From: Bdellovibrionota bacterium | Lineage (GTDB): Bacteria; Bdellovibrionota; Bdellovibrionia; Bdellovibrionales; JAMPXM01 | Length of the DNA: 38,354 nucleotides | Direction: 5' to 3' | Assembly (NCBI GenBank): GCA_963170185.1 | Contig: CAUJGS010000043.1 | Location: forward strand, 1 to 38,354 | Shown here: piece by piece, positions 2,395 through 12,881 of the stretch | How positions within the stretch are numbered: the stretch's first letter is position 1 | Layout: each line of letters starts with the position of its first letter | Program-made: the position numbers and the translations under genes | Notes under the pieces: model-generated | Told to the model about the DNA's origin: nothing | Databases searched by the model: none | Seen by the model: the letters and a program-made list of their open reading frames with translations, nothing else

Positions 2395-2787
2395 ATGAAA
2401 ATCGGTGAGGCTGCAAAAGAATCCGGCGTGAACGCGAAACTCATTCGCCACTACGAGTCAATAGGGATCATCCCAAAGGCCGCACGAAGCGAGGCCGGAT
2501 ACCGCAAGTACTCGGAGGCCGATGTTCACATCTTGAAGTTCGTTAAACGTTCGCGAGCCCTTGGTTTCTCCATGAAGGAGATCAAAAAGCTCGTCGGTTT
2601 GTGGCGAAACAAATCACGCGCAAGCCTCGAGGTAAAAAACCTGGCACTTAAGCACGTCGAGGAAATGGAGAATAAAATCCAAGAGCTTCAGGACATGGTT
2701 CGAACACTTCGGCATTTGGCAAAAAACTGCCATGGCGACTCGCGGCCAGATTGCCCCATTCTGGAAGATCTTGCGACGTCACGCTAG
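2395..2787 (+). CDS. cueR: CueR-like copper-responsive MerR-family regulator
   Basis: This 130-residue cytoplasmic regulator should sense Cu(I) and activate the divergent copA promoter. The N-terminal winged helix (about residues 1-70: KIGEAAKESGV, IRHYESIGI, GYRKY) is followed by a dimerisation helix and a metal loop with C112 and C120 in CHGDSRPDC, the C-x7-C spacing of CueR. Ser77 occupies the position linked to monovalent-ion selectivity, where divalent sensors such as ZntR and MerR have Cys. The chosen ATG begins the conserved 'MKIGEAA' sequence; an upstream in-frame ATG would add 33 residues running through the operator and promoter, so I rejected it. Its last 9 nt overlap the 3' end of the convergent MerT-like gene. 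Confidence 0.93.
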   Translation: MKIGEAAKESGVNAKLIRHYESIGIIPKAARSEAGYRKYSEADVHILKFVKRSRALGFSMKEIKKLVGLWRNKSRASLEVKNLALKHVEEMENKIQELQDMVRTLRHLAKNCHGDSRPDCPILEDLATSR

Positions 2788-3144
2788 AACGTAAGCGAAA
2801 ACGAAACCCACGACATAGACAGTGACACTCACAAAGTAGAGGTTTCGGCTAAATCTTCGACCACTTATACAAGCCTGCCTAAGCTTCGGATCGACCGGGC
2901 ATGGCGCATTTCGATTGAGCCACAATAGTAGGCCATTTCCAGCCAACATCACACCGGCTAAGAGAAACACCGCCAGCTTGTTTTCCGAAACCCAGATCAG
3001 ACCAGGGACACTGGAAGCCAGTCCCGCCACAACAGCTCCTAGTCCTAGACTTACCAACAAAGCCGGAAGAGCGCAGCAAACCAATGTTCCCATCGAACCA
3101 AAGAGCGAGAGAAAAGTGACAAGCTGTGATCGCCGCTCGATCAT
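2779..3144 (-). CDS. MerT-like heavy-metal transport membrane protein
   Basis: This 121-residue predicted inner-membrane protein has three hydrophobic segments (about residues 9-42, 54-76 and 98-120). A vicinal pair C23-C24 lies in the first segment and a second pair, C82 and C92, lies in the loop before the third. That layout matches mercuric transporter MerT (Cys24-Cys25 in TM1, two loop cysteines), although overall similarity by eye is low. Its ATG overlaps the stop of the periplasmic HMA protein by 4 nt (ATGA), like a MerP/MerT pair passing metal from periplasm to membrane. No MerA or MerR accompanies it, so the metal may not be mercury; copper is plausible from context. Last gene of the operon headed by the outer-membrane protein. 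Confidence 0.68.
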   Translation of the reverse strand: MIERRSQLVTFLSLFGSMGTLVCCALPALLVSLGLGAVVAGLASSVPGLIWVSENKLAVFLLAGVMLAGNGLLLWLNRNAPCPVDPKLRQACISGRRFSRNLYFVSVTVYVVGFVFAYVLA

Positions 3145-3449
3145 GGTTTTGCCGATTCACCAGCAGAGAAGTTTGCTTCGTAACCAGCATCCTTTAACAA
3201 CTGAGTGATCTTCGCCTCCGAAAGAGTCTTTCCGTCTTTGAATTTCAGCATCACGAATTTCTTTTCAAGACTGACCTGAATATCGGCGACCTCGTCTTGT
3301 GAACGAAACTTCTTCTCAATCCCTTGGGCACAAAAAGAACACACCATCCCTTTCACCCCCACCTTCATTTCTTGACCTGCCATCGCAGGCAGCGAAATGA
3401 GCACTCCAACCAAACCGAACGTCGCAGCCTTGATCATCGTTTTGATCAT
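3141..3449 (-). CDS. Periplasmic heavy-metal-associated (HMA/MerP-like) protein
   Basis: This 102-residue protein has a signal peptide (cleavage expected after AMA, about residue 24) and a single HMA ferredoxin-like domain with GMVCSFC (C37, C40), the usual M-x-C-x-x-C soft-metal site. The region EVADIQVSLEKKFVMLKF and the terminal KDAGYEA match the fold's conserved strands and last helix. It probably captures a monovalent or soft metal in the periplasm and passes it to the overlapping MerT-like protein. A strong AGGAGG sits just upstream of the ATG, only a few bases after the stop of the outer-membrane protein gene, so the three genes form one operon. It could equally be a periplasmic copper chaperone. 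Confidence 0.85.
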   Translation of the reverse strand: MIKTMIKAATFGLVGVLISLPAMAGQEMKVGVKGMVCSFCAQGIEKKFRSQDEVADIQVSLEKKFVMLKFKDGKTLSEAKITQLLKDAGYEANFSAGESAKP

Positions 3450-3460
3450 AAAACCTCCTC

Positions 3461-4138
3461 CTAAAAATGAACCATGTAGTTAAAAACCCATCCACCATTC
3501 AGACGGGTTCCTATTTCCCAAAGCGTGTTTCGTACGTAAAACCGCAATATCTGCGTAAGCTCGACTTCCTCACCGCCTAACCCGCTACCTGATCCGCGTC
3601 CGACGTAGCGTTCGGCTTGCAAGATGAGCCACACATTGAGTTCGTCGTATTCCGCCAAAAACGGCGCTGTTCCCACGCGGAACTTCATGTACCCGTAGCT
3701 CTCGTTTGGAATCGCAAGATTTCGACGGTTATCGCGATGGAGATACATTTGATCAAATAGGACGTAGTACCGACGACTTTCCCAATCCATACCAAGACCG
3801 GCCATTCGCACCGTCTGATTCTCATTCTTGAAAACTTCAGAACCGATCCCGCCGCTGAGATAGATATTAGCCTGCGAGTCCTCGTTGTTCCAACGTTTGG
3901 CGAGCCAGTTCAGTCTCGGAATATAGAACTCGGAATCCGAACTCTTTAAGTACGTTGTCGCGACCGCAAGCTGTGACGTGAAGGAATGCACAAGAGACAC
4001 TTCCGTCATGTCGGAAGAGTTGAACGACATCAGGCCCCAAGCACCTTTGTACGGAACCGGATGAGCTTCAGATCGCGCGCCAAATCCCACCACCACAAGT
4101 GCACCAAAAAGAAGCGCTGTAAACCGTCTCAACACCAT
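3461..4138 (-). CDS. Predicted outer-membrane beta-barrel protein, first gene of ECF-controlled operon
   Basis: This 225-residue protein is not a family I recognise. It has a signal peptide (about residues 1-25, ending SEA) and then many short amphipathic stretches rich in aromatic and alternating residues, with a terminal phenylalanine (YMVHF), as in small outer-membrane barrels. I chose the second ATG, 12 nt inside the longest frame, because GGGGGA lies 5 nt upstream of it and the first ATG would be only about 10 nt after the predicted -10 element. It leads the operon with the HMA and MerT-like genes, so a role in metal passage or sensing at the outer membrane is inferred. Two His/Pro residues just after the signal (HPVPYKG) are notable but untested. 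Confidence 0.7.
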   Translation of the reverse strand: MVLRRFTALLFGALVVVGFGARSEAHPVPYKGAWGLMSFNSSDMTEVSLVHSFTSQLAVATTYLKSSDSEFYIPRLNWLAKRWNNEDSQANIYLSGGIGSEVFKNENQTVRMAGLGMDWESRRYYVLFDQMYLHRDNRRNLAIPNESYGYMKFRVGTAPFLAEYDELNVWLILQAERYVGRGSGSGLGGEEVELTQILRFYVRNTLWEIGTRLNGGWVFNYMVHF

Positions 4139-4160
4139 CAGATCCCCCATTTACAAAGAG

Positions 4161-4190
4161 GAATACGAACAGGGCCGTTTTTTTGTGACA
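4161..4190 (-). promoter_or_regulatory. ECF-type promoter for the outer-membrane/HMA/MerT-like operon
   Basis: On the minus strand TGTCACAA is followed by 15 nt and CGTATTC, then CTCTTTG. The same two blocks with the same spacing precede the divergent sigma factor gene on the plus strand. This fits an ECF-sigma -35/-10 pair. The leader to the chosen start codon would be about 15-17 nt. Confidence 0.75.
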
Positions 4191-4212
4191 TCGAAAATAA
4201 TTTGTCACAAAA
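4181..4212. repeat. Perfect inverted repeat in the divergent sigma/operon promoter region
   Basis: Arms TTTTGTGACA and TGTCACAAAA match perfectly over 10 bp around a 12-nt AT-rich centre. Each arm contains the -35 block of one of the two divergent promoters, so the symmetry is explained by back-to-back copies of the same promoter element. A dimeric regulator binding here as well cannot be excluded. Confidence 0.9.
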
Positions 4213-4232
4213 CAATCCGACCGCTCGTATTC
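4203..4232 (+). promoter_or_regulatory. ECF-type promoter for the sigma factor operon
   Basis: TGTCACAA, 15 nt, CGTATTC, then A and CTCTTTG: the same element as the mirror copy upstream of the minus-strand operon. Transcription should start near 4239, shortly before the ribosome binding site GAGAGAGGA of the sigma gene. The match predicts positive autoregulation. Confidence 0.75.
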
Positions 4233-4249
4233 ACTCTTTGAGAGAGGAC

Positions 4250-4828
4250 ATGACTACTCACCGCCCCCAAACGGGACTCGACTCTCAATCCGACGAAGAA
4301 CTGATGGACCTCTATCGGCGTGGGGACTCTATGGCCAAAACAGCCTTTCAGTTGATTTTCGAGCGCTATGGCGGCCGAGTTCTTATGTTTCTCTCCCGAC
4401 GGGTTCCAAATAGCCGCTTGGCAGAGGACCTCACTCAAGAGGTCTTCTTCAAACTTCATCGGTCAAAACACCTCTACAACTCGACCCTGCCGTTTTCACC
4501 GTGGCTGTTTTCGATCGCTCGGTCTGTGATGCTAGATCACCTTAAGCGCCGAGATCTTGAAGACCCTGTCGGCGATGCCTCGAACTTCGATAAATTTCCG
4601 ACGACCACTGAATCACAACCAGCGACAGGACTGAACTCAGAGCCAAGCCTTGCTCTCGGCCGGCTTCCAGAAGCTCAGAGCGAGGCCATTCGGCTAAGAG
4701 TTTACGAGAACGAAACATTTGATGAAATCGCACTTAGGCTTTCGACCTCGCCAGACAACGCAAGACAGCTATTTAGTCGCGGGATCAAAAAACTTCGATC
4801 CCTCTTAAAAAACAAGGAGGATCTATGA
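4250..4828 (+). CDS. ECF (RpoE-type) RNA polymerase sigma factor
   Basis: This 192-residue protein has the two-domain layout of extracytoplasmic-function sigma factors. Region sigma2 spans about residues 20-100 (RYGGRVLMFLSRRV, LAEDLTQEVFFKLHR, PWLFSIARSVMLDHLKRR) and sigma4 about 135-190 (LPEAQSEAIRLRVYENETFDEIALRLSTS and the recognition helix up to KKLRSLL). It should direct RNA polymerase to the TGTCACAA/CGTATTC promoters on both sides of the divergent region. The ATG was chosen because a purine-rich GAGAGAGGA precedes it and the protein then begins as normal ECF factors do; longer in-frame starts run back through the promoter. The stop overlaps the start of the membrane protein downstream by ATGA, the usual arrangement of a sigma and its anti-sigma. 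Its linkage to metal genes suggests metal or envelope stress as the signal. Confidence 0.93.
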   Translation: MTTHRPQTGLDSQSDEELMDLYRRGDSMAKTAFQLIFERYGGRVLMFLSRRVPNSRLAEDLTQEVFFKLHRSKHLYNSTLPFSPWLFSIARSVMLDHLKRRDLEDPVGDASNFDKFPTTTESQPATGLNSEPSLALGRLPEAQSEAIRLRVYENETFDEIALRLSTSPDNARQLFSRGIKKLRSLLKNKEDL

Positions 4829-5352
4829 ACTTCGGAAACAAAGATGAGTGGCTAAATGAACTCGTTGAGTTCTCCAAACTTCCCAAGAGCGAAGCTCCGG
4901 CGCGTGTTCTTAAGGGACTTCAAACGCGTCTCTTCCCGAATCCCTGGGTCGTATTCGGAAAGATCGCGATCCTGCACGGGCTTGTCGGCTTCTTTTCGCT
5001 CGCGATCTGTGAACAGTTTGGACTCAATCCCTTTCAAACTACGCAGTCACTGACCGTTTGGTTCATGAGCCTTGCCGGCCATAATCTCTGCATGGTGCTT
5101 TGTGGGATGTTCTTTATGGCAACGACGTATCTTCTCGCCAATGTCGTGCTCACGCTCGAGGAGCTTGAGAGCATCAAACGCCATGAATGGCTACAAACGG
5201 GCGTGGTATGCCTAACATCACTCGCCGCGTTTGCGTTCTTCGGAGCCGAGCTCGTCGGCACATTCGTTCTTCTATGGCTAGTCGGTGCCGTCTCCGGCGG
5301 GTTGCTCTCGATCGAAGTCAGCTATCGGCTACGAAGAGAGCTTGCGGCTTAA
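4825..5352 (+). CDS. Multi-pass membrane protein, probable anti-sigma factor
   Basis: This 175-residue protein is not a family I recognise. The first 40 residues are hydrophilic and cytoplasmic-like (NKDEWLNELVEFSKLP), as expected for a sigma-binding region, followed by about four membrane spans (roughly residues 41-61, 77-109, 122-141 and 142-165) and a basic C-terminus. It is translationally coupled to the ECF sigma gene, hence the anti-sigma proposal. It lacks the classical zinc-binding HX3CX2C soluble motif, but H86, C89 and C93 lie together inside a hydrophobic span, with H51, C62 and C129 also in or next to spans. These could form a metal- or redox-sensing site within the membrane. Function is inferred from position and topology only. 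Confidence 0.6.
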   Translation: MNFGNKDEWLNELVEFSKLPKSEAPARVLKGLQTRLFPNPWVVFGKIAILHGLVGFFSLAICEQFGLNPFQTTQSLTVWFMSLAGHNLCMVLCGMFFMATTYLLANVVLTLEELESIKRHEWLQTGVVCLTSLAAFAFFGAELVGTFVLLWLVGAVSGGLLSIEVSYRLRRELAA

Positions 5353-5451
5353 GACGGCAAGTCTACGGCCGGATAAGATTCGACATAAGACTGCCTTGCA
5401 TGACGACACTCCCCTGCTTCATGACATAGATGCCATCACTTCTCCTCAAGA

Positions 5452-6192
5452 CTACGGTACTACAATAGTGTAACGACCATTCACAACATTCATCTGCGGC
5501 GGGATGCGGCGGTCCTCAAAATAGACATAGCCTTCACGAAGTTCTCGCCAAAAACTGAAGTCATTGAACCGGAGATATCGAAACAATACCAAACGGTCCA
5601 ACCGAAATGGAAATATGTGTACAGACACACTGTCTTGACCGTTTTTTATAGCTGCTTCCACAAGTGCGTAGATCTCCTCTACTCCAGAGTCCGTCATCGC
5701 AAGACATCCTATCGACACACAGTCTCCGTGAATCATGAGAAAACTACCCGTTCTTCCGTGATGGCGGTCGTATCGATTCGGAAATCCAATATTCATCGAG
5801 AGATGGTAGGAACTATTCGGATTAAAACTACCGGCACCGAGCTTATAAAACCCTTCTGGGGTTTTCCTATCACCCGTTCGCTTTTTTGGCCCGAGACCAC
5901 CGGAAAAGTAGCAGATCGGATATGAACGAAAGAGCTCAAACTTTTCGCCACGTTTTAGCCAAACCTCCATAATCGACTCGTCTTTAAAGACGCGAAGAAA
6001 CGCGGCATCTCCCCACTTCCACCCCCGAGATTCAAGAGCTGGCTCTAGCCGTGTTCGAACCCGCTCCACTGCTTCTCGAGACCGCGTCGAAGTCGGAATC
6101 GCCGAACGTGTGTCCGCACAGGCCACATGGGGCACAGATCCAAGTGCTCCAAGAGAAACTCCCAATACTAGGCAATTAAATAAAGCTCGCAT
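5452..6192 (-). CDS. YafK-like murein L,D-transpeptidase family protein
   Basis: This 246-residue periplasmic YkuD-domain enzyme acts on peptidoglycan cross-links or on lipoprotein attachment. A signal peptide ends near residue 26 (HVACA). The catalytic domain shows GDRKTPEGFY (about 107-116) and the active-site block HGDCVSIGCLAM with H155 and C163. Length and motif arrangement match E. coli YafK (DpaA/LdtF), which releases Braun lipoprotein from peptidoglycan, better than the cross-linking LdtD group, but the reaction cannot be decided from sequence alone. GGAGGG stands 7 nt before the ATG. It is divergent from the response regulator gene and convergent with the anti-sigma candidate, with 99 nt between their stops in which I see no convincing terminator. 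Confidence 0.88.
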   Translation of the reverse strand: MRALFNCLVLGVSLGALGSVPHVACADTRSAIPTSTRSREAVERVRTRLEPALESRGWKWGDAAFLRVFKDESIMEVWLKRGEKFELFRSYPICYFSGGLGPKKRTGDRKTPEGFYKLGAGSFNPNSSYHLSMNIGFPNRYDRHHGRTGSFLMIHGDCVSIGCLAMTDSGVEEIYALVEAAIKNGQDSVSVHIFPFRLDRLVLFRYLRFNDFSFWRELREGYVYFEDRRIPPQMNVVNGRYTIVVP

Positions 6193-6264
6193 GTCTCATC
6201 CCTCCGACCTCCAGGGTGAGACCTCCTCGTTCCTAAACACAGACACGGACTTGTAAAATCCGAA

Positions 6265-6292
6265 TTGTGTCTTTTTACATTTTCATTACAAT
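6265..6292 (+). promoter_or_regulatory. Possible promoter of the two-component operon
   Basis: TTGTGT, 16 nt, TACAAT (5 of 6 to consensus). The predicted transcript start, about 6299, lies after an upstream in-frame ATG and before the ATG preceded by GAGAG, which supports the later start codon for the response regulator. The -35 match is weak. Confidence 0.35.
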
Positions 6293-6329
6293 GACAAAGA
6301 CCCTAGCCTGCTACGCTCGAGAGAGTTGC

Positions 6330-7040
6330 ATGACGAAAAGTAAGCACATTCTCATTGTCGAAGACGAACCCGCTATCCGGGATGGCTTGCAGAACCTTTT
6401 TGCCTTTCACGGCTATCAAGTATCGGTTTGCCTAGACGGCAATTCGGGTCTTAAGTCCGCCACCCAAGATCCGGTCGACCTTGTGATCTTGGATGTGATG
6501 CTACCAGGAAAAGACGGCTTTCAAGTTTGCCAAGAAATCCGAGAAAAGAAACCACGCCTTCCCATCATCATGCTGACCGCAAGGACTTCGGAAGATGACA
6601 TCGTAAATGGGCTTAAACTAGGAGCCGACGACTACATTCCAAAGCCGTTTTCTCTTCGCATCCTTCTAACTCGTGTCGAAAATCTCTTAAAACGAGACTC
6701 TCGTGGGTCAGAGGAAAAGAATCTGCTCGCCGGCCCTTGGAAAATCTCCGGAAAAAATCTCACTGCCACTCATCAGTTCAACGGCAAGTCCATTGAACTC
6801 ACACCGCGAGAAGTAGAAATCCTAGATTTCCTAGCGAGCCTAAACCACGACAGCAAAACGCGCGAAGAGCTTCTCTCCCAGGTTTGGGGGTACCGAGACG
6901 CGGCCGACTTGGAAACCAGAACGGTCGATATTCATATTGCAAAACTTCGAAAAAAACTCGAGATCGACGCCAAAGCACCGGAAATCATTCTCACCATACG
7001 TGGGCGAGGCTATCGCCTGGTAAAAGCGCATGAAGAATGA
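6330..7040 (+). CDS. OmpR/PhoB-family response regulator
   Basis: This 236-residue DNA-binding response regulator has a receiver domain with the acidic pair E11-D12, phospho-acceptor D55 (LVILDVMLPGKDGF), a conserved Thr in MLTAR and a conserved Lys in PKPFS. A C-terminal winged helix follows (about residues 135-235; LTPREVEIL, VDIHIAKLRKKL, IRGRGYRLV). The start was chosen at the ATG with GAGAG just upstream; two in-frame upstream starts would add 13-21 residues before the receiver and lie at or before the predicted transcript start. It overlaps its kinase gene by 11 nt. Family members bind 7-bp direct repeats at about 11-bp period. Such a repeat lies ahead of the porin gene downstream, making that operon the likely target. 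Confidence 0.93.
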   Translation: MTKSKHILIVEDEPAIRDGLQNLFAFHGYQVSVCLDGNSGLKSATQDPVDLVILDVMLPGKDGFQVCQEIREKKPRLPIIMLTARTSEDDIVNGLKLGADDYIPKPFSLRILLTRVENLLKRDSRGSEEKNLLAGPWKISGKNLTATHQFNGKSIELTPREVEILDFLASLNHDSKTREELLSQVWGYRDAADLETRTVDIHIAKLRKKLEIDAKAPEIILTIRGRGYRLVKAHEE

Positions 7041-8829
7041 ACGGCGGCTGCTACGCATCGGCGCCTATATCGGAGTTCTCGCCACGGTTCTTGTCGGCGT
7101 TTTAGTCGTCGTCGTTTTGCACAATCAAATTCGCCGAGGCCTAAACGAACGACAAGTCGAATCGGCGAGAAAACAAGTCAGCTCGTCCCTTGAAGAGTTT
7201 CGTCAGATCCTTGAGCAAGAATCCAGACGCCCATTCACCGAATACAGTCACTCCAACTTCCGAGGCGTCTCGGCACAAAGCTTCGTCCAGTTCTCCAATA
7301 TCTCCTCACTTCAACCCAGTGTTCGCATCCCAGGCCTTGTCGGGTACTTTCAGATCGCCGAGAAACAAAAACTCGAACTACCATTTTTCCCCGAAGGGCT
7401 TCCGACAGACCGGCAAGATCGCGAGAGACGACGGGATCTCGCCCGCAAAGTCTTATCCACGATCTTTAAAACACAACCGCTTAGCGCAAGCGAAGACTTA
7501 AGAACTCGCTTTAGCCAGCTCTTTCGAGGTGTTTGGCTCCCAAATATCAACACGTCCGAGATCGTTCCCCTAAAAGCGATTCCAACAAAGGCCGTTTCTC
7601 CTAAGGTCTTGTCGAAATCCGCACCACCCATTGAAACCTTGGAAGCTCTTCGCTCCCAAAGCCTGAACCTCGCTTCAACATCGCAGGCGTTTCCGATTCA
7701 GGCCTTTCTCCTGGAAAACGGCTACCTCGTCTTCTACCGCAGCGTGCTTCATAACGGACGAACGCTGACACAGGGCTTTGTCGTCGATCAAAAGTCCTTC
7801 TTCGGCTCTCTCTTTGGTGAACTCACAAAAGACGCCTCTAAACAATTGACCCTTGTCGTTGAAAACCAAGATCTCGGCATTTTCCCAACGACTCTTCAAG
7901 GCTCCTACCCACTCTTCCAAGTCGACGAGCTTCTTCCCATTCAAGGTCTCTCGCTTCTTGTTTCAGGAAAAGACGCAAAGCTCGATGCCACGCAAATCAC
8001 GATACTCGCACTCGTGGCCCTCGTCGTTCTCGTGATCATCGGTGCCGTCATTCTCATGTACAAAACGGCGATCCGCCAGCTTGAACTCTCTGAACGGCAA
8101 GCGGCGTTTGTTTCTTCGGTTAGTCACGAGCTACGCACACCCATCACCGCAATTCGCATGCATGGCGAAATCTTAAAAGCCGGATGGTCAAAAGATGAAG
8201 CGGCAAAAGAAAGCTCTTACGATTACATTCTAAAAGAATCCGAACGACTCTCCAGGCTGATCGAAAACGTCCTTCGCTACGCGAGAATTGGACGCGACAG
8301 CGACCCACTCAATATCGAGCGCGTGAGCCTTCCCGAGCTTCGTACGCTCATCACCGAGAAAGTCGCGCCACTTGTCACACAGAACCAGTTCTCGTTTGAG
8401 CTTATTGATAACCTAGGGTCACGGCAACATGGGCAGACGGATTCCAGTGCCATCGACATCGATCGCGACGCTCTCACGCAAATTCTAATTAACCTCGTCG
8501 ACAACGGAGTGAAGTTCTCACGCACCTCTGCCAAAAAGAAAATCACTCTCACTCTTGAGAACTCCGATCAGAGCATAAAAATAGGTGTGCGTGATTTCGG
8601 GCCCGGAATTTCACCAGGAATTTCTCAGACAAACCCGCACAAGGTCTTTGAACTCTTCTTTCGAGCCGAAGACGAAATGACCAGAACCACTCCCGGAACT
8701 GGCTTAGGTTTAGCGCTTGTGAAGTCCCTTTCGGACCGCATGGGCCTTAGGGTCTGGTTCGAAAACCGCTCACCAGGCTGTGAATTCCTTCTCCAAATTC
8801 CCGTTTCAAAGAGTGTCGAATCTTCATGA
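7030..8829 (+). CDS. Membrane sensor histidine kinase with large periplasmic domain
   Basis: This 599-residue partner kinase of the overlapping response regulator has a TM1 at about residues 9-31 and TM2 at about 321-345, enclosing a periplasmic region of nearly 290 residues that I cannot assign to a known sensor fold. Then come a HisKA domain (SSVSHELRTPITA, phospho-acceptor H366) and HATPase_c with N box (NLVDNGVKF, about 486-494), G1 (DFGPGIS) and G2 (GTGLGLAL). No HAMP domain is obvious between TM2 and HisKA; the linker is only about 20 residues. The signal is unknown. The downstream porin/imelysin operon suggests iron or another nutrient, by inference only. Confidence 0.93.
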   Translation: MKNERRLLRIGAYIGVLATVLVGVLVVVVLHNQIRRGLNERQVESARKQVSSSLEEFRQILEQESRRPFTEYSHSNFRGVSAQSFVQFSNISSLQPSVRIPGLVGYFQIAEKQKLELPFFPEGLPTDRQDRERRRDLARKVLSTIFKTQPLSASEDLRTRFSQLFRGVWLPNINTSEIVPLKAIPTKAVSPKVLSKSAPPIETLEALRSQSLNLASTSQAFPIQAFLLENGYLVFYRSVLHNGRTLTQGFVVDQKSFFGSLFGELTKDASKQLTLVVENQDLGIFPTTLQGSYPLFQVDELLPIQGLSLLVSGKDAKLDATQITILALVALVVLVIIGAVILMYKTAIRQLELSERQAAFVSSVSHELRTPITAIRMHGEILKAGWSKDEAAKESSYDYILKESERLSRLIENVLRYARIGRDSDPLNIERVSLPELRTLITEKVAPLVTQNQFSFELIDNLGSRQHGQTDSSAIDIDRDALTQILINLVDNGVKFSRTSAKKKITLTLENSDQSIKIGVRDFGPGISPGISQTNPHKVFELFFRAEDEMTRTTPGTGLGLALVKSLSDRMGLRVWFENRSPGCEFLLQIPVSKSVESS

Positions 8830-8879: not shown

Positions 8880-8950
8880 CTTGATTGCAACAACATCTCG
8901 TCTTCCATGCCGCGTTGAGATTTCACCTGGCCGGTGAGATCACGTCTCGC

Positions 8951-10246
8951 GTGAAAAACTCTACCTCTATTCTCAATCAAATTTCGATCTTGCTGACATC
9001 CATCGTTCTTGCTGCTCCGGTCGCTCAGGCGCAAGACGACACCTCAACGGTGTCCACCACCACATCGAACGCCATCGAAATCGAACTCGAGGTTTATGGC
9101 GCATTTCATATCAGGCAGTTTGATTATTTCAAAAATGCCCTAGATATGAATCCGCGCCAACGACGCGAAGTCGATCTCGAGCGCATGGTTTTTGAACCCG
9201 TTTTCAAGCTCGGACGCGAATGGAAGATCGAGACAGAAGTTGAAATCGAGCGCGGCGGAGTTGGAACAAGCATGGAGCTTGACGGCTTTGAAGAGTTCGG
9301 CGAGTTCGAAACCGAACTCGAACAAGGCGGCGAAGTAAAACTCGACAAGCTTGAGATCGAATGGGAGCCTTCCAAAGTACTCTCCTTCAAAACGGGACTC
9401 ATCACGGTCCCTGTCGGAATGATCTCGCAAAAACACAAGCCTACTGAATACTTCTCGGTGACGAGAAACCGTTCGGAAGCTCGTATTTTGCCATCGACAT
9501 GGCGCTCGGTCGGACTTGGCATGAGCGGAGCCTTCAGTGTCGGATCAGAAACTAAGGTTCTTCATCAAACTGTTCTTGTACAGGGTCTGAACTCGGAATT
9601 CTTTCGCAAATACAACTGGATTCAAGACGGTGCCGGTCGCAAGTTTGAAACCACTTACGCAGATAACCTCGCACTCGCGACACGATGGGATCTTGCAAGC
9701 GAAGATCGCACACGCGCTGTTGGTGTTTCGCTCTACTACGGCGACAGTTCGCAAAACCGGCAGAAAGTAGACAAACTCACTGTCGAGGCCAATGTTTTAA
9801 TCTGGGATGTGCACGTTTTTTGGGAGTCCCCGACCTGGACAGTTCGCGCGCTCTACCTTCGCGGATATCTGCAAAACTCAGAAGAAGTCTCCACACAAAA
9901 CGCGACACTCGGCGGAGCCGCAAATCCTGGCGCCTTTGCGGCTCTCGGAAAAGAAGCGGAGCTTTATTTCTTAGAAGCCGCTTACAATATCGGAAATACG
10001 ATCAATCGCTTCGATCTCTTCGCCCGCTTCGACAGCTTTGATCCGATGAAGGAAGTCGCCGGAAACATCAACCGCGATCCACGTTTTCGCGAGACTTCTT
10101 GGACCACGGGGCTAGCCTACAAACCAAGACCCGAACTCGTCGCCAAACTTCAATATAGCCAAATTCGATCTGGCCTAGATGCGCTTCCGACTGCCCATGA
10201 AATCATGGCTGGCATCGGCTTCGCGTTCTCGTCGGAAAAACAGTAG
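8951..10246 (+). CDS. Porin-like outer-membrane beta-barrel protein
   Basis: This 431-residue protein starts at a GTG chosen because it gives a clean signal peptide (KNSTSILNQISILL to VAQA); a TTG 66 nt upstream would add an unlikely N-terminal extension, and the ribosome binding site (GGTGAG, about 11 nt away) is weak. The mature chain is a barrel with repeated amphipathic strands, acidic turns (about residues 80-125) and a segment like phosphate-selective/OprP-type or imelysin-linked porins (GLITVPVGMISQKHKPTEYFSV, with LPSTWRSVGLGMSG following); it ends in an aromatic-rich final strand (EIMAGIGFAFSS). It heads an operon with imelysin and di-heme proteins, so it may admit iron or an iron complex. 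Substrate unknown. Confidence 0.8.
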   Translation: MKNSTSILNQISILLTSIVLAAPVAQAQDDTSTVSTTTSNAIEIELEVYGAFHIRQFDYFKNALDMNPRQRREVDLERMVFEPVFKLGREWKIETEVEIERGGVGTSMELDGFEEFGEFETELEQGGEVKLDKLEIEWEPSKVLSFKTGLITVPVGMISQKHKPTEYFSVTRNRSEARILPSTWRSVGLGMSGAFSVGSETKVLHQTVLVQGLNSEFFRKYNWIQDGAGRKFETTYADNLALATRWDLASEDRTRAVGVSLYYGDSSQNRQKVDKLTVEANVLIWDVHVFWESPTWTVRALYLRGYLQNSEEVSTQNATLGGAANPGAFAALGKEAELYFLEAAYNIGNTINRFDLFARFDSFDPMKEVAGNINRDPRFRETSWTTGLAYKPRPELVAKLQYSQIRSGLDALPTAHEIMAGIGFAFSSEKQ

Positions 10247-10264
10247 ATTCAAAAGGAGAAAGAG

Positions 10265-11413
10265 ATGAACCAAACACTTCACAACACATTCCGCTTCGCA
10301 CTGGGTGGCGTGTTGGCAATCGGCCTCACGGCCTGTGGCATGAAAGACCAAGAAAAGTCCGGCGCTCAACAGGTTGCGGACAAAACGCAAGCCGACCTCG
10401 AAACCAAAGTCATTCAGAGCATCACAGAAAACGTCGTCGTCGCGACATACGTGCATCTTCGCGATGAAACCAAGGAGTTGGCTCGATTGGCCAAGGTGCT
10501 CGTTGCCAATCCCACCGATGAAAATCTGAAAGCCGTGCAGACGAAGTGGAAAGAGGCACGCGTTCCTTGGGAGTCCACTGAAGGCTTTCTTTTTGGTCCC
10601 GTTGATAGTCTCGGAGTCGATCCAGCGATCGACTCATGGCCGCTATCGAAAGTCGATCTCGACTTAATATTGAAGGAACGACCAAACATCACCGCTGACT
10701 TCGTGCGAGGTCTCGGTACAGATGTTCAGGGCTTTCACACAGCGGAATACTTGATTTTCGGTGACGGCGAAGTAACGAACACAAAACCCGTATCCGAAAT
10801 GACAGAGGCGCAATTCAACTATCTGATCGCCGTAACAGCTGTCCTTGCGGAACAAACCGAAAAGCTTCACCAGTCTTGGACTGTTCGACATGACCCTTCT
10901 GTGGCTTCTTCCAAGCCCTATAGCCACTATGTCTTAAACCCCAGCCTCGATAACGACTTCTACCCATCACGCAAAGCCGTGCTTCAGGAGTTCGTCCAAG
11001 GCTTGATCAAAATCGCCGTTGAAGTCGGAAAAGGCAAAATCTCGGATCCTCTTGGCGGCGATCTCGCATCAGCCGATCCGTCTTTGGTCGAATCGCAATT
11101 CAGCTGGAATTCGTTGATCGACTTCCAAAACAATATGATGTCGATCCGAAACATTTATCTCGGTGGCTACCGCACAAAAGGGCTTGGCCTTAGTGACTTG
11201 GTCGTTTTGAAGAACCCTGCCCTTGACGGGAAAATCAAAGCGCAGATCGACGCTTCAGAAAAGGCCATCGGCGAGATCGCAGGTTCGCAAAACGTGTCGT
11301 TCACTCAAGCCATTAAAACAGCTGACGGACGCCAACGCTCTTTGATCGCGATCGAAAAAATCGCGGAACTCGAGGCGACGCTGACCAACGAACTCTTGCC
11401 GCTCTTCCAATAA
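10265..11413 (+). CDS. Imelysin-family (M75-like) lipoprotein
   Basis: This 382-residue predicted lipoprotein has a lipobox at LTAC (C24), followed by the all-helical imelysin domain with the signature GxHxxE (GFHTAE, H158 and E161). Other conserved stretches include WPLSKVDLD and the C-terminal NIYLGGYRTK region. Members such as ICMP and EfeO bind or handle iron in the periplasm; the old name 'insulin-cleaving metallopeptidase' need not describe the real role. A good AAGGAG precedes the ATG, 18 nt after the porin stop. With the porin and the di-heme protein it fits a periplasmic iron-acquisition set. Confidence 0.9.
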   Translation: MNQTLHNTFRFALGGVLAIGLTACGMKDQEKSGAQQVADKTQADLETKVIQSITENVVVATYVHLRDETKELARLAKVLVANPTDENLKAVQTKWKEARVPWESTEGFLFGPVDSLGVDPAIDSWPLSKVDLDLILKERPNITADFVRGLGTDVQGFHTAEYLIFGDGEVTNTKPVSEMTEAQFNYLIAVTAVLAEQTEKLHQSWTVRHDPSVASSKPYSHYVLNPSLDNDFYPSRKAVLQEFVQGLIKIAVEVGKGKISDPLGGDLASADPSLVESQFSWNSLIDFQNNMMSIRNIYLGGYRTKGLGLSDLVVLKNPALDGKIKAQIDASEKAIGEIAGSQNVSFTQAIKTADGRQRSLIAIEKIAELEATLTNELLPLFQ

Positions 11414-11426
11414 CGAGGACGAAGCC

Positions 11427-12881
11427 ATGAAATTAAAGAGTCTTGCTTACCTGCTTCTGATTGTCGGTTCGGCCTGTTCGAAGCCGAACGCGGAACCAGC
11501 GCGACCTTCGACTGAGAAGACCGCAGGGTACCCCGCATACGCGTGGGTGACTAATCTCGCAGGGCCAGCGACGAGCGAAGACTCTTCGTCCTCACTTTCA
11601 TTCAACGTTCCGGTTCCAGTTCTCTCAAAAGAAGAACTGGAACTGCATCTCGGCGGCGACATCGACTTCAATCGTCAGTTCAACGGCGAACAAGGTCTTG
11701 GACCCGCCTTCAACGCAAGTTCCTGTGTCGCCTGCCATGCACGTGATGGCCGAGGTGCTCTACCTGTTTTAAACGCCGAAGACCGAAGTGTTCGCTTTGG
11801 GCCCAACGAATCTCTTCTTCTTCGTATCAGCCTTGAAACCGAAAACGGGCCGATCGTGGTGCCTGGATTTAGCGAACAGGTGCATCAACGGGGGATCTAC
11901 AGCCTCAGACAAGACATGCCGGGTATCGGGCAAACCGACATCGAAATGCACTTTGAGTACTCGACTTTCACGTATCCCGATGGATCGAGCGTCGAGCTAA
12001 GAAAGCCCGTTTTTCAGTTCGTAGGGGCGTACGACGAAATGGCGGACAGAGATTCGATCTTAAAAGATCCCCGTATTCGCGTGAGTCCAAGAATTGGACC
12101 TCCCATTATCGGACTCGGCCTTTTGGACGCCATCGACGATAAACAGTTGATTCAAATGGCAGATCCTGATGATCGAAATGGCGACGGGATTCGCGGCAAA
12201 GTGAACTTCATCGATGGACGTGTTGGTCGTCACGGTTGGAAAGCCAACAACCCCGATGTCCGCACTCAGGTGGCCGCGGCTCTTAATCACGATATGGGGC
12301 TCACGAACTCCCTCTTCCCATTTGAGAACATCTTAAACACACCACTCTTTACAAACTGGACCGCACGCCTCTCGATCGACCCTTCAAAGTTCGCACCCGA
12401 AATCACCGATGCCCATCTTGATCGGTTGAGCTTTTACACGTCGACCCTTGCCGTTCCAAAACGTCGCAAGGTTTTGGATCTCGACGTCCTGCAAGGCGCT
12501 CGTCAGTTCGAAGTCGTCGGCTGCACAGGTTGCCACACGCCGATGCTAAAAACAGGAACATCCGGGACGATCGAACATTTCAAAAATCAAACGATCTACC
12601 CCTTTAGCGATGGTCTTCTTCACGACATGGGAGAAGAACTTGCCGATCACCGTCAAGATCACGAGGCCAGCGGTCGCCAATGGCGAACGCGCCCTCTTTG
12701 GGGAATCGGACTCACTCAAACAATCAACCCACGCGCTGGCTTTTTACACGACGGACGAGCGCGCACGCTTGAAGAAGCCATCTTGCATCATGGCGGCGAA
12801 GCAGCTGCATCAAGGCAGAAATTTTCAAACCTTCCGAAATCTGCAAGACAGGAACTCATCAGCTTCTTAAGGTCGCTCTAG
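11427..12881 (+). CDS. Di-heme c-type cytochrome oxidoreductase (DHOR/DUF1111 family) lipoprotein
   Basis: This 484-residue predicted lipoprotein has a lipobox VGSAC (C17). Two haem c attachment motifs are present: CVACH (C100, C103, H104) and CTGCH (C366, C369, H370), the spacing typical of the di-haem oxidoreductase family once annotated 'thiol oxidoreductase'. Family landmarks such as PRIGPPIIGLGLLDAI, DRNGDGIRGKVNFIDGRVGRHGWKA and the terminal FLHDGRARTLEEAILHHGGEA are clear. It lies 13 nt after the imelysin gene, an association known in many bacteria. It probably oxidises or reduces a metal or small molecule in the periplasm during iron uptake; the substrate is not established. Confidence 0.93.
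   Translation: MKLKSLAYLLLIVGSACSKPNAEPARPSTEKTAGYPAYAWVTNLAGPATSEDSSSSLSFNVPVPVLSKEELELHLGGDIDFNRQFNGEQGLGPAFNASSCVACHARDGRGALPVLNAEDRSVRFGPNESLLLRISLETENGPIVVPGFSEQVHQRGIYSLRQDMPGIGQTDIEMHFEYSTFTYPDGSSVELRKPVFQFVGAYDEMADRDSILKDPRIRVSPRIGPPIIGLGLLDAIDDKQLIQMADPDDRNGDGIRGKVNFIDGRVGRHGWKANNPDVRTQVAAALNHDMGLTNSLFPFENILNTPLFTNWTARLSIDPSKFAPEITDAHLDRLSFYTSTLAVPKRRKVLDLDVLQGARQFEVVGCTGCHTPMLKTGTSGTIEHFKNQTIYPFSDGLLHDMGEELADHRQDHEASGRQWRTRPLWGIGLTQTINPRAGFLHDGRARTLEEAILHHGGEAAASRQKFSNLPKSARQELISFLRSL

Follow-up and report, generated by a model that had tools for sequence, protein, structure and literature searches.

Between an ECF sigma factor gene and a divergently transcribed operon of metal-protein type, a 38,354-nucleotide stretch of Bdellovibrionota DNA (the window, meaning the whole stretch analysed) carries one bipartite sequence twice. 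This arrangement raises the question of whether the two copies are promoters read by the sigma factor itself and, if so, which genes and which signal they would link. The original prediction took the sequence to be the recognition site of the ECF factor and the MerT/HMA/barrel operon to be its partner regulon.

The paired element and the genes around it

The sequence TGTCACAA-N15-CGTATTC occurs in two mismatch-free copies pointing apart, at 4161-4190 on the minus strand and at 4203-4232 on the plus strand. Read as ECF-type promoters, the plus-strand copy, which precedes the sigma/anti-sigma operon, consists of a -35 box TGTCACA (4203-4209), a spacer N16 and a -10 box CGTATTC (4226-4232), and the minus-strand copy, which precedes the operon for an outer-membrane-type, an HMA and a MerT-like protein (OMP-HMA-MerT), of TGTCACA (4190-4184), N16 and CGTATTC (4167-4161). 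The exact double occurrence and the lack of a third copy, both claimed beforehand, were borne out: the window holds no other site with three or fewer mismatches, and a search of the whole 3.54-Mb assembly, as had been proposed, returned two exact copies of TGTCACA-N16-CGTATTC, both at 4161-4232. Four sites with two mismatches elsewhere in the assembly compare with two for reversed-pattern controls, which is chance level, and the pair comprises all the sites found in this genome. The heptamer CTCTTTG, originally said to follow both copies, does so immediately on the minus strand (4154-4160), but on the plus strand one additional A separates it from CGTATTC (4234-4240). As it is not shared by the elements of relatives and is offset by one base between the strands, CTCTTTG is excluded from the element, which is then TGTCACA-N16-CGTAWT.

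The plus-strand operon begins with a 192-aa sigma factor (4250-4828; Pfam, NCBIfam) that has regions 2 and 4 without region 3, as is characteristic of ECF (group IV) factors, and contains no cysteine; Pfam places Sigma70_r2 at residues 36-102 (1e-14) and r4_2 at residues 135-182 (9.5e-10). Overlapping it by 4 bp is the gene of a 175-aa candidate anti-sigma factor with four predicted transmembrane (TM) helices (4825-5352, plus strand). On the minus strand, the conserved first gene of the divergent operon (3461-4138) encodes an outer-membrane-type protein without a Pfam family; its likely start is the ATG at 4138 behind GGGGGAT, the longest open reading frame starting at 4150, and it appears beta-rich only in a very low-confidence, unusable model (pLDDT 31.8). 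It is followed by a secreted, MerP/CopZ-like HMA-domain protein (3141-3449, minus strand) with a signal peptide and the CxxC-bearing motif GMVCSFC, which matches Pfam HMA (PF00403; 8.1e-06, 26.6 bits against a cut-off of 24.8) and stays under the cut-offs of the NCBIfam CopZ/MerP models. The third gene (2779-3144, minus strand) encodes a small membrane protein whose cysteines include CC and C...C pairs and which is syntenic in relatives; it matches no Pfam or NCBIfam model, the MerT family model included, and the label MerT-like denotes a resemblance in cysteine pairs and operon context only.

Beyond this operon lie CueR (plus strand) and then a CopA-type ATPase (minus strand), with a CueR-type (MerR-family) dyad, ACCTTCCAACGGTTGGAAGGT, at 2333-2353 between their starts (about 2395 and about 2319, respectively). 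Because CueR and CopA share this classical dyad directly beside the ECF locus, the locus seems to combine a copper circuit of CueR type with a parallel one of ECF type. Elsewhere in the window (8885-12881), a response regulator/kinase pair is followed by consecutive genes for an outer-membrane-type protein, an imelysin (Peptidase_M75) and a di-haem oxidoreductase, which resemble a metal or iron uptake operon.

Promoter conservation and the CGTA/CCTA split

Relatives of the locus belong to the Bdellovibrionota, the nearest named contigs being Bdellovibrio-type MAGs. Across approximately 38 loci, the sigma/anti-sigma pair mostly adjoins either an OMP-HMA-MerT operon, often with a cupredoxin gene, or an OEP-CusB-CusA operon. 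Among the 33 loci outside the Bdellovibrio clade, the element stands upstream of the sigma gene in 30, compared with a mean of 0.04 in dinucleotide shuffles, as would be expected of an autoregulated sigma gene, and the partner operon, whose first gene is OMP or CusC, also lies behind it in related loci. The spacer is 16 bp nearly throughout, with a few of 15 or 17 bp. In the 141 genomes of the order, TGTCACA-N16-CGTAWT occurs at about 80 sites versus about 9 for reversed-pattern controls; for a version with CCTA in the -10 box the counts are about 44 versus about 4. Conservation in relatives and both kinds of control thus refute a chance match, to which we assign practically no probability, in agreement with the earlier claim that the repeat is not accidental.

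The two TGTCACA boxes also form an inverted repeat, and with a CueR gene nearby the palindrome TTGTGACA...TGTCACAA could be read as the operator of a dimeric regulator (CRP/FNR-like, or CueR itself) rather than as two promoters. However, the gap between the boxes ranges from 12 bp (in the window, the shortest) to 84 bp among 19 divergent loci, and CueR has its own, separate dyad. Moreover, in loci L071 and L073 both operons are co-directional and each has its own copy of the element; in these loci, as at the trans targets described below, the copies are single and oriented, with CGTA or CCTA always about 16 bp downstream. The operator reading, very improbable in our estimation, was rejected on the variable gap and the co-directional loci. 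Loci with a single promoter also exist and carry the same element. Judged by these arrangements, the element is a directional promoter unit. Of the mirror image originally described, the two copies facing apart are real, and their layout is a by-product of divergent transcription, since the co-directional loci carry the same unit.

The motif, with either -10 box, is found in 53 of the 68 genomes of the order that encode the putative anti-sigma factor and in 10 of the 73 that do not (Fisher p=3e-15), and in the phylum outside the order in 49/109 versus 9/85 (p=9e-8); both p-values overstate significance because the genomes are related by descent and not independent. The exceptions within the order comprise 15 of the 68 positive genomes, in which no exact motif occurs, and 10 genomes that have the motif but no detected anti-sigma gene; at least G091 and G109 among the co-occurrence exceptions have diverged sigma or anti-sigma genes.

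A different -10 box, CCTAWT in place of CGTA, characterises the Bdellovibrio-like genomes (genus g11 together with G036 and, in G041, the second locus). The sigma factors of the CCTA loci form one clade with a support of 100/100, L084 being a long branch, and G041 encodes both sigma paralogues, each with its own -10 box. No other sequence evidence argues as strongly for recognition of the element by the sigma factor as this joint change of -10 box and sigma clade, including the pairing in G041. We infer binding of the sigma factor to the element from these patterns, and the idea that the motif is an ECF recognition sequence gains support from the conserved promoters, the co-occurrence with the sigma/anti-sigma pair and the clade-linked -10 box.

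Where a divergent promoter is present in the CCTA clade, it abuts the sigma start. In addition, TGTCACAA-N15-CCTA lies inside the sigma gene, in the linker, about 200 bp before the anti-sigma gene (L156:3154-3182, L079, L080, L081, L082, L084, L141 and L145). There 8/8 sequences retain TGTCACAA, split into codons as NTG-TCA-CAA, and CCT has an A after it in every case despite variation (I, N, S, T) in the residue encoded next. These codon-level signs of DNA constraint in the linker suggest an internal CCTA promoter for the anti-sigma gene alone. In G014, an anti-sigma copy (L062) stands beside CusCBA with no adjacent sigma gene and with CCTA promoters in both directions; as the sigma gene of this genome sits at another locus (L081), one sigma factor may serve two anti-sigma factors.

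Copper genes behind the promoter

The sites outside the sigma locus were inspected individually, and family matches were determined for representatives. Of the CGTA trans sites, nine lie ahead of a small secreted protein (AHGEDKPGPNGG...), a CusA-type RND pump or both; a multicopper oxidase and a Cys-rich metallothionein-like protein each follow one further site. The CCTA sites stand before CopA ATPases, multicopper oxidases, CusA pumps, the small secreted protein (AHGEDKPGPNGG...), a TRASH/YHS-type protein and OMP-HMA-MerT. Four of the sites read (L116, L117, L119, L149) have no evident target, and sites within genes in L126, L127 and L134 were taken as chance. The regulon in relatives would thus be broader than that of the window, encompassing CusCBA, CopA and multicopper oxidase, and the view of the MerT/HMA/barrel operon as partner regulon is strengthened by the conserved partner-operon promoters together with the trans sites at copper genes.

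Two of the small secreted proteins deserve separate description. One, of 140-160 aa with the pattern AHGED.PGPNGG.I.MPG.FHTE (L123:3051-3476, L121:2941-3372, L148:2544-3035), has no Pfam family and recurs ahead of CusA-type RND pumps, with the sigma promoter in front of it; it is probably a new periplasmic copper protein. The other is Cys-rich and metallothionein-like (CCTETENCCKKDCC...; L050:6685-7023, minus strand) and lies behind a sigma-type promoter.

The sigma factor could read these promoters in response to a metal other than copper (Ag, Hg, Cd) or to a different stress, envelope or redox, with the copper genes as one output. CusA-type pumps can also transport Ag. The operon further resembles MerT/MerP mercury transport in combining a secreted HMA protein with a small Cys-pair membrane protein, and the SigF-NrsF system, related in kind, responds to Cr and Cd (PMC3511200). 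In contrast to MerT/MerP, however, the first gene here is barrel-type, a cupredoxin is a frequent partner and the promoter is of ECF type; no merA was seen beside OMP-HMA-MerT operons. Since the targets across the phylum are recurrently of copper-specific types (multicopper oxidase, CopA, cupredoxin, CusCBA), copper is favoured and a different signal is unlikely. Copper as the signal is thus deduced from gene content, and the metal is most likely copper rather than mercury.

The four-helix membrane protein and the proposed circuit

Of 141 genomes of the order, 68 encode relatives of the 4-TM protein, and in the phylum 167 of 291 do; no plasmid-borne relatives of this protein or of the outer-membrane-type protein were found. 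Among 36 relatives, C62, C89 and C93 are invariant and H51 and G85 nearly so. Hydropathy and an AlphaFold2 model of moderate confidence (pLDDT 71.6, about four TM helices) place C62 at the distal end of TM1, with C89/C93 in the first half of TM2; with a cytoplasmic N-terminus, the three cysteines would therefore lie near the periplasmic side. The protein has no PDB fold match at E<=0.001, no PDB sequence match and no Pfam match. On these grounds, and because the G014 copy has no neighbouring sigma gene, it could be a co-regulated membrane copper protein, the sigma factor being controlled otherwise. Its gene, however, overlaps the sigma gene in nearly all loci, whichever promoter clade they belong to and including those with no metal operon next to them, which makes that alternative quite unlikely and, by gene order, marks the protein as a candidate anti-sigma factor. 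A Cu(I)-thiolate site that triggers sigma release would be the simplest reading of the three invariant cysteines. In L063 (G043), an internal stop breaks the anti-sigma gene and a truncated sigma gene stands at the contig end; in L045, the anti-sigma gene has as its neighbour a gene (5241-7298, minus strand) that joins an FTR1 iron permease to a cytochrome c domain.

We propose, as very probable, that the sigma factor from 4250-4828 uses both elements as its promoters and that the circuit would run as follows: (i) the membrane protein from the overlapping gene would keep the sigma factor inactive; (ii) when envelope copper rises, the anti-sigma factor would let the sigma factor go, probably via Cu(I) at C62/C89/C93; (iii) RNA polymerase carrying the sigma factor would start at the TGTCACA-N16-CGTAWT promoters and transcribe both the sigma operon and, in the opposite direction, the OMP-HMA-MerT operon. 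More tentatively, at slightly under an even chance, we hypothesise that the 4-TM protein represents a new anti-sigma family that is itself a membrane-embedded Cu(I) receptor, in which C62, C89 and C93 bind periplasmic Cu(I) and a conformational change releases the sigma factor without proteolysis; it would govern the copper regulon of most Bdellovibrionota, and Bdellovibrio would have rewired the system by changing the -10 specificity and by gaining, within the sigma gene, a sigma-dependent promoter from which only the anti-sigma factor is expressed.

The system closest in logic is SigF-NrsF of Caulobacter, in which an ECF gene is likewise followed by a gene for a multi-TM protein with conserved cysteines, there an anti-sigma factor, the response is to metals (Cr/Cd) and the spacer is N16 (PMC3511200). 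It differs in anti-sigma family, promoter (GTAACC-N16-CGAA) and regulon (DUF2282/DUF692): NrsF is a DUF1109 protein with six TM helices and two key cysteines (PMC3511200), whereas DUF1109 matches 0/36 members of the present family, which has about four TM helices, and homology to NrsF was rejected. ECF41 factors, with the promoter TGTCACA-N16-CGTC and a fused C-terminal regulatory domain, share the -35 box and the 16-bp spacer (PMC3426412), but their -10 box is CGTC instead of CGTA or CCTA, their targets are COE-type instead of copper genes, and they have no separate anti-sigma factor. ECF41 membership was rejected, as the sigma factor ends directly after region 4 and has no SnoaL-type Pfam match. 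CorE of Myxococcus xanthus is also a copper-linked ECF factor over a multicopper oxidase and a copper ATPase, but senses copper through its own Cys-rich C-terminus, with no anti-sigma factor found (PMC3107203); the window's sigma factor, paired with a membrane-protein gene, has zero cysteines and is not CorE-like. SigAb of Acinetobacter is copper-induced, with operon-encoded anti-sigma activity, but AabA/AabB are described by an RpoE/RseA-like model and metal genes are mostly indirect targets, whereas here they carry the promoter (PMC12153292). Within the phylum, Bd0743 (206 aa) and Bd0881 (162 aa) of Bdellovibrio bacteriovorus HD100 are also group IV sigma factors; they reportedly have no anti-sigma gene downstream (PMC3464611), and in this they differ from the G004 pair, a 190-aa sigma relative with an overlapping anti-sigma gene.

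In summary, the elements, their conservation and their ties to the sigma/anti-sigma pair and to copper-handling genes can be read directly from the genomes, and they support the view that Bdellovibrionota share a conserved, sigma-controlled copper regulon of ECF type, with the 4-TM protein as candidate for a new anti-sigma family. The literature search yielded no description of this system; the main ECF classification lay beyond its scope, and an existing ECF group number is possible. The patterns point to a copper-response system that is widespread in Bdellovibrionota and apparently undescribed. Described copper-responsive ECF systems are few (CorE, PMC3107203; SigAb, PMC12153292), and in the literature found no ECF factor directly controls CusCBA, CopA and multicopper oxidases via a Cys-bearing membrane anti-sigma factor. 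How ECF factors recognise the -10 box could be studied on the natural CGTA/CCTA split between the sister sigma clades. If the proposal is true, its promoter code is predicted and checkable by one reporter assay, and it would constitute a main copper-response circuit of a whole phylum, predatory bacteria included. Copper tolerance is also relevant to the suggestion that Bdellovibrio could serve as a living antibiotic.
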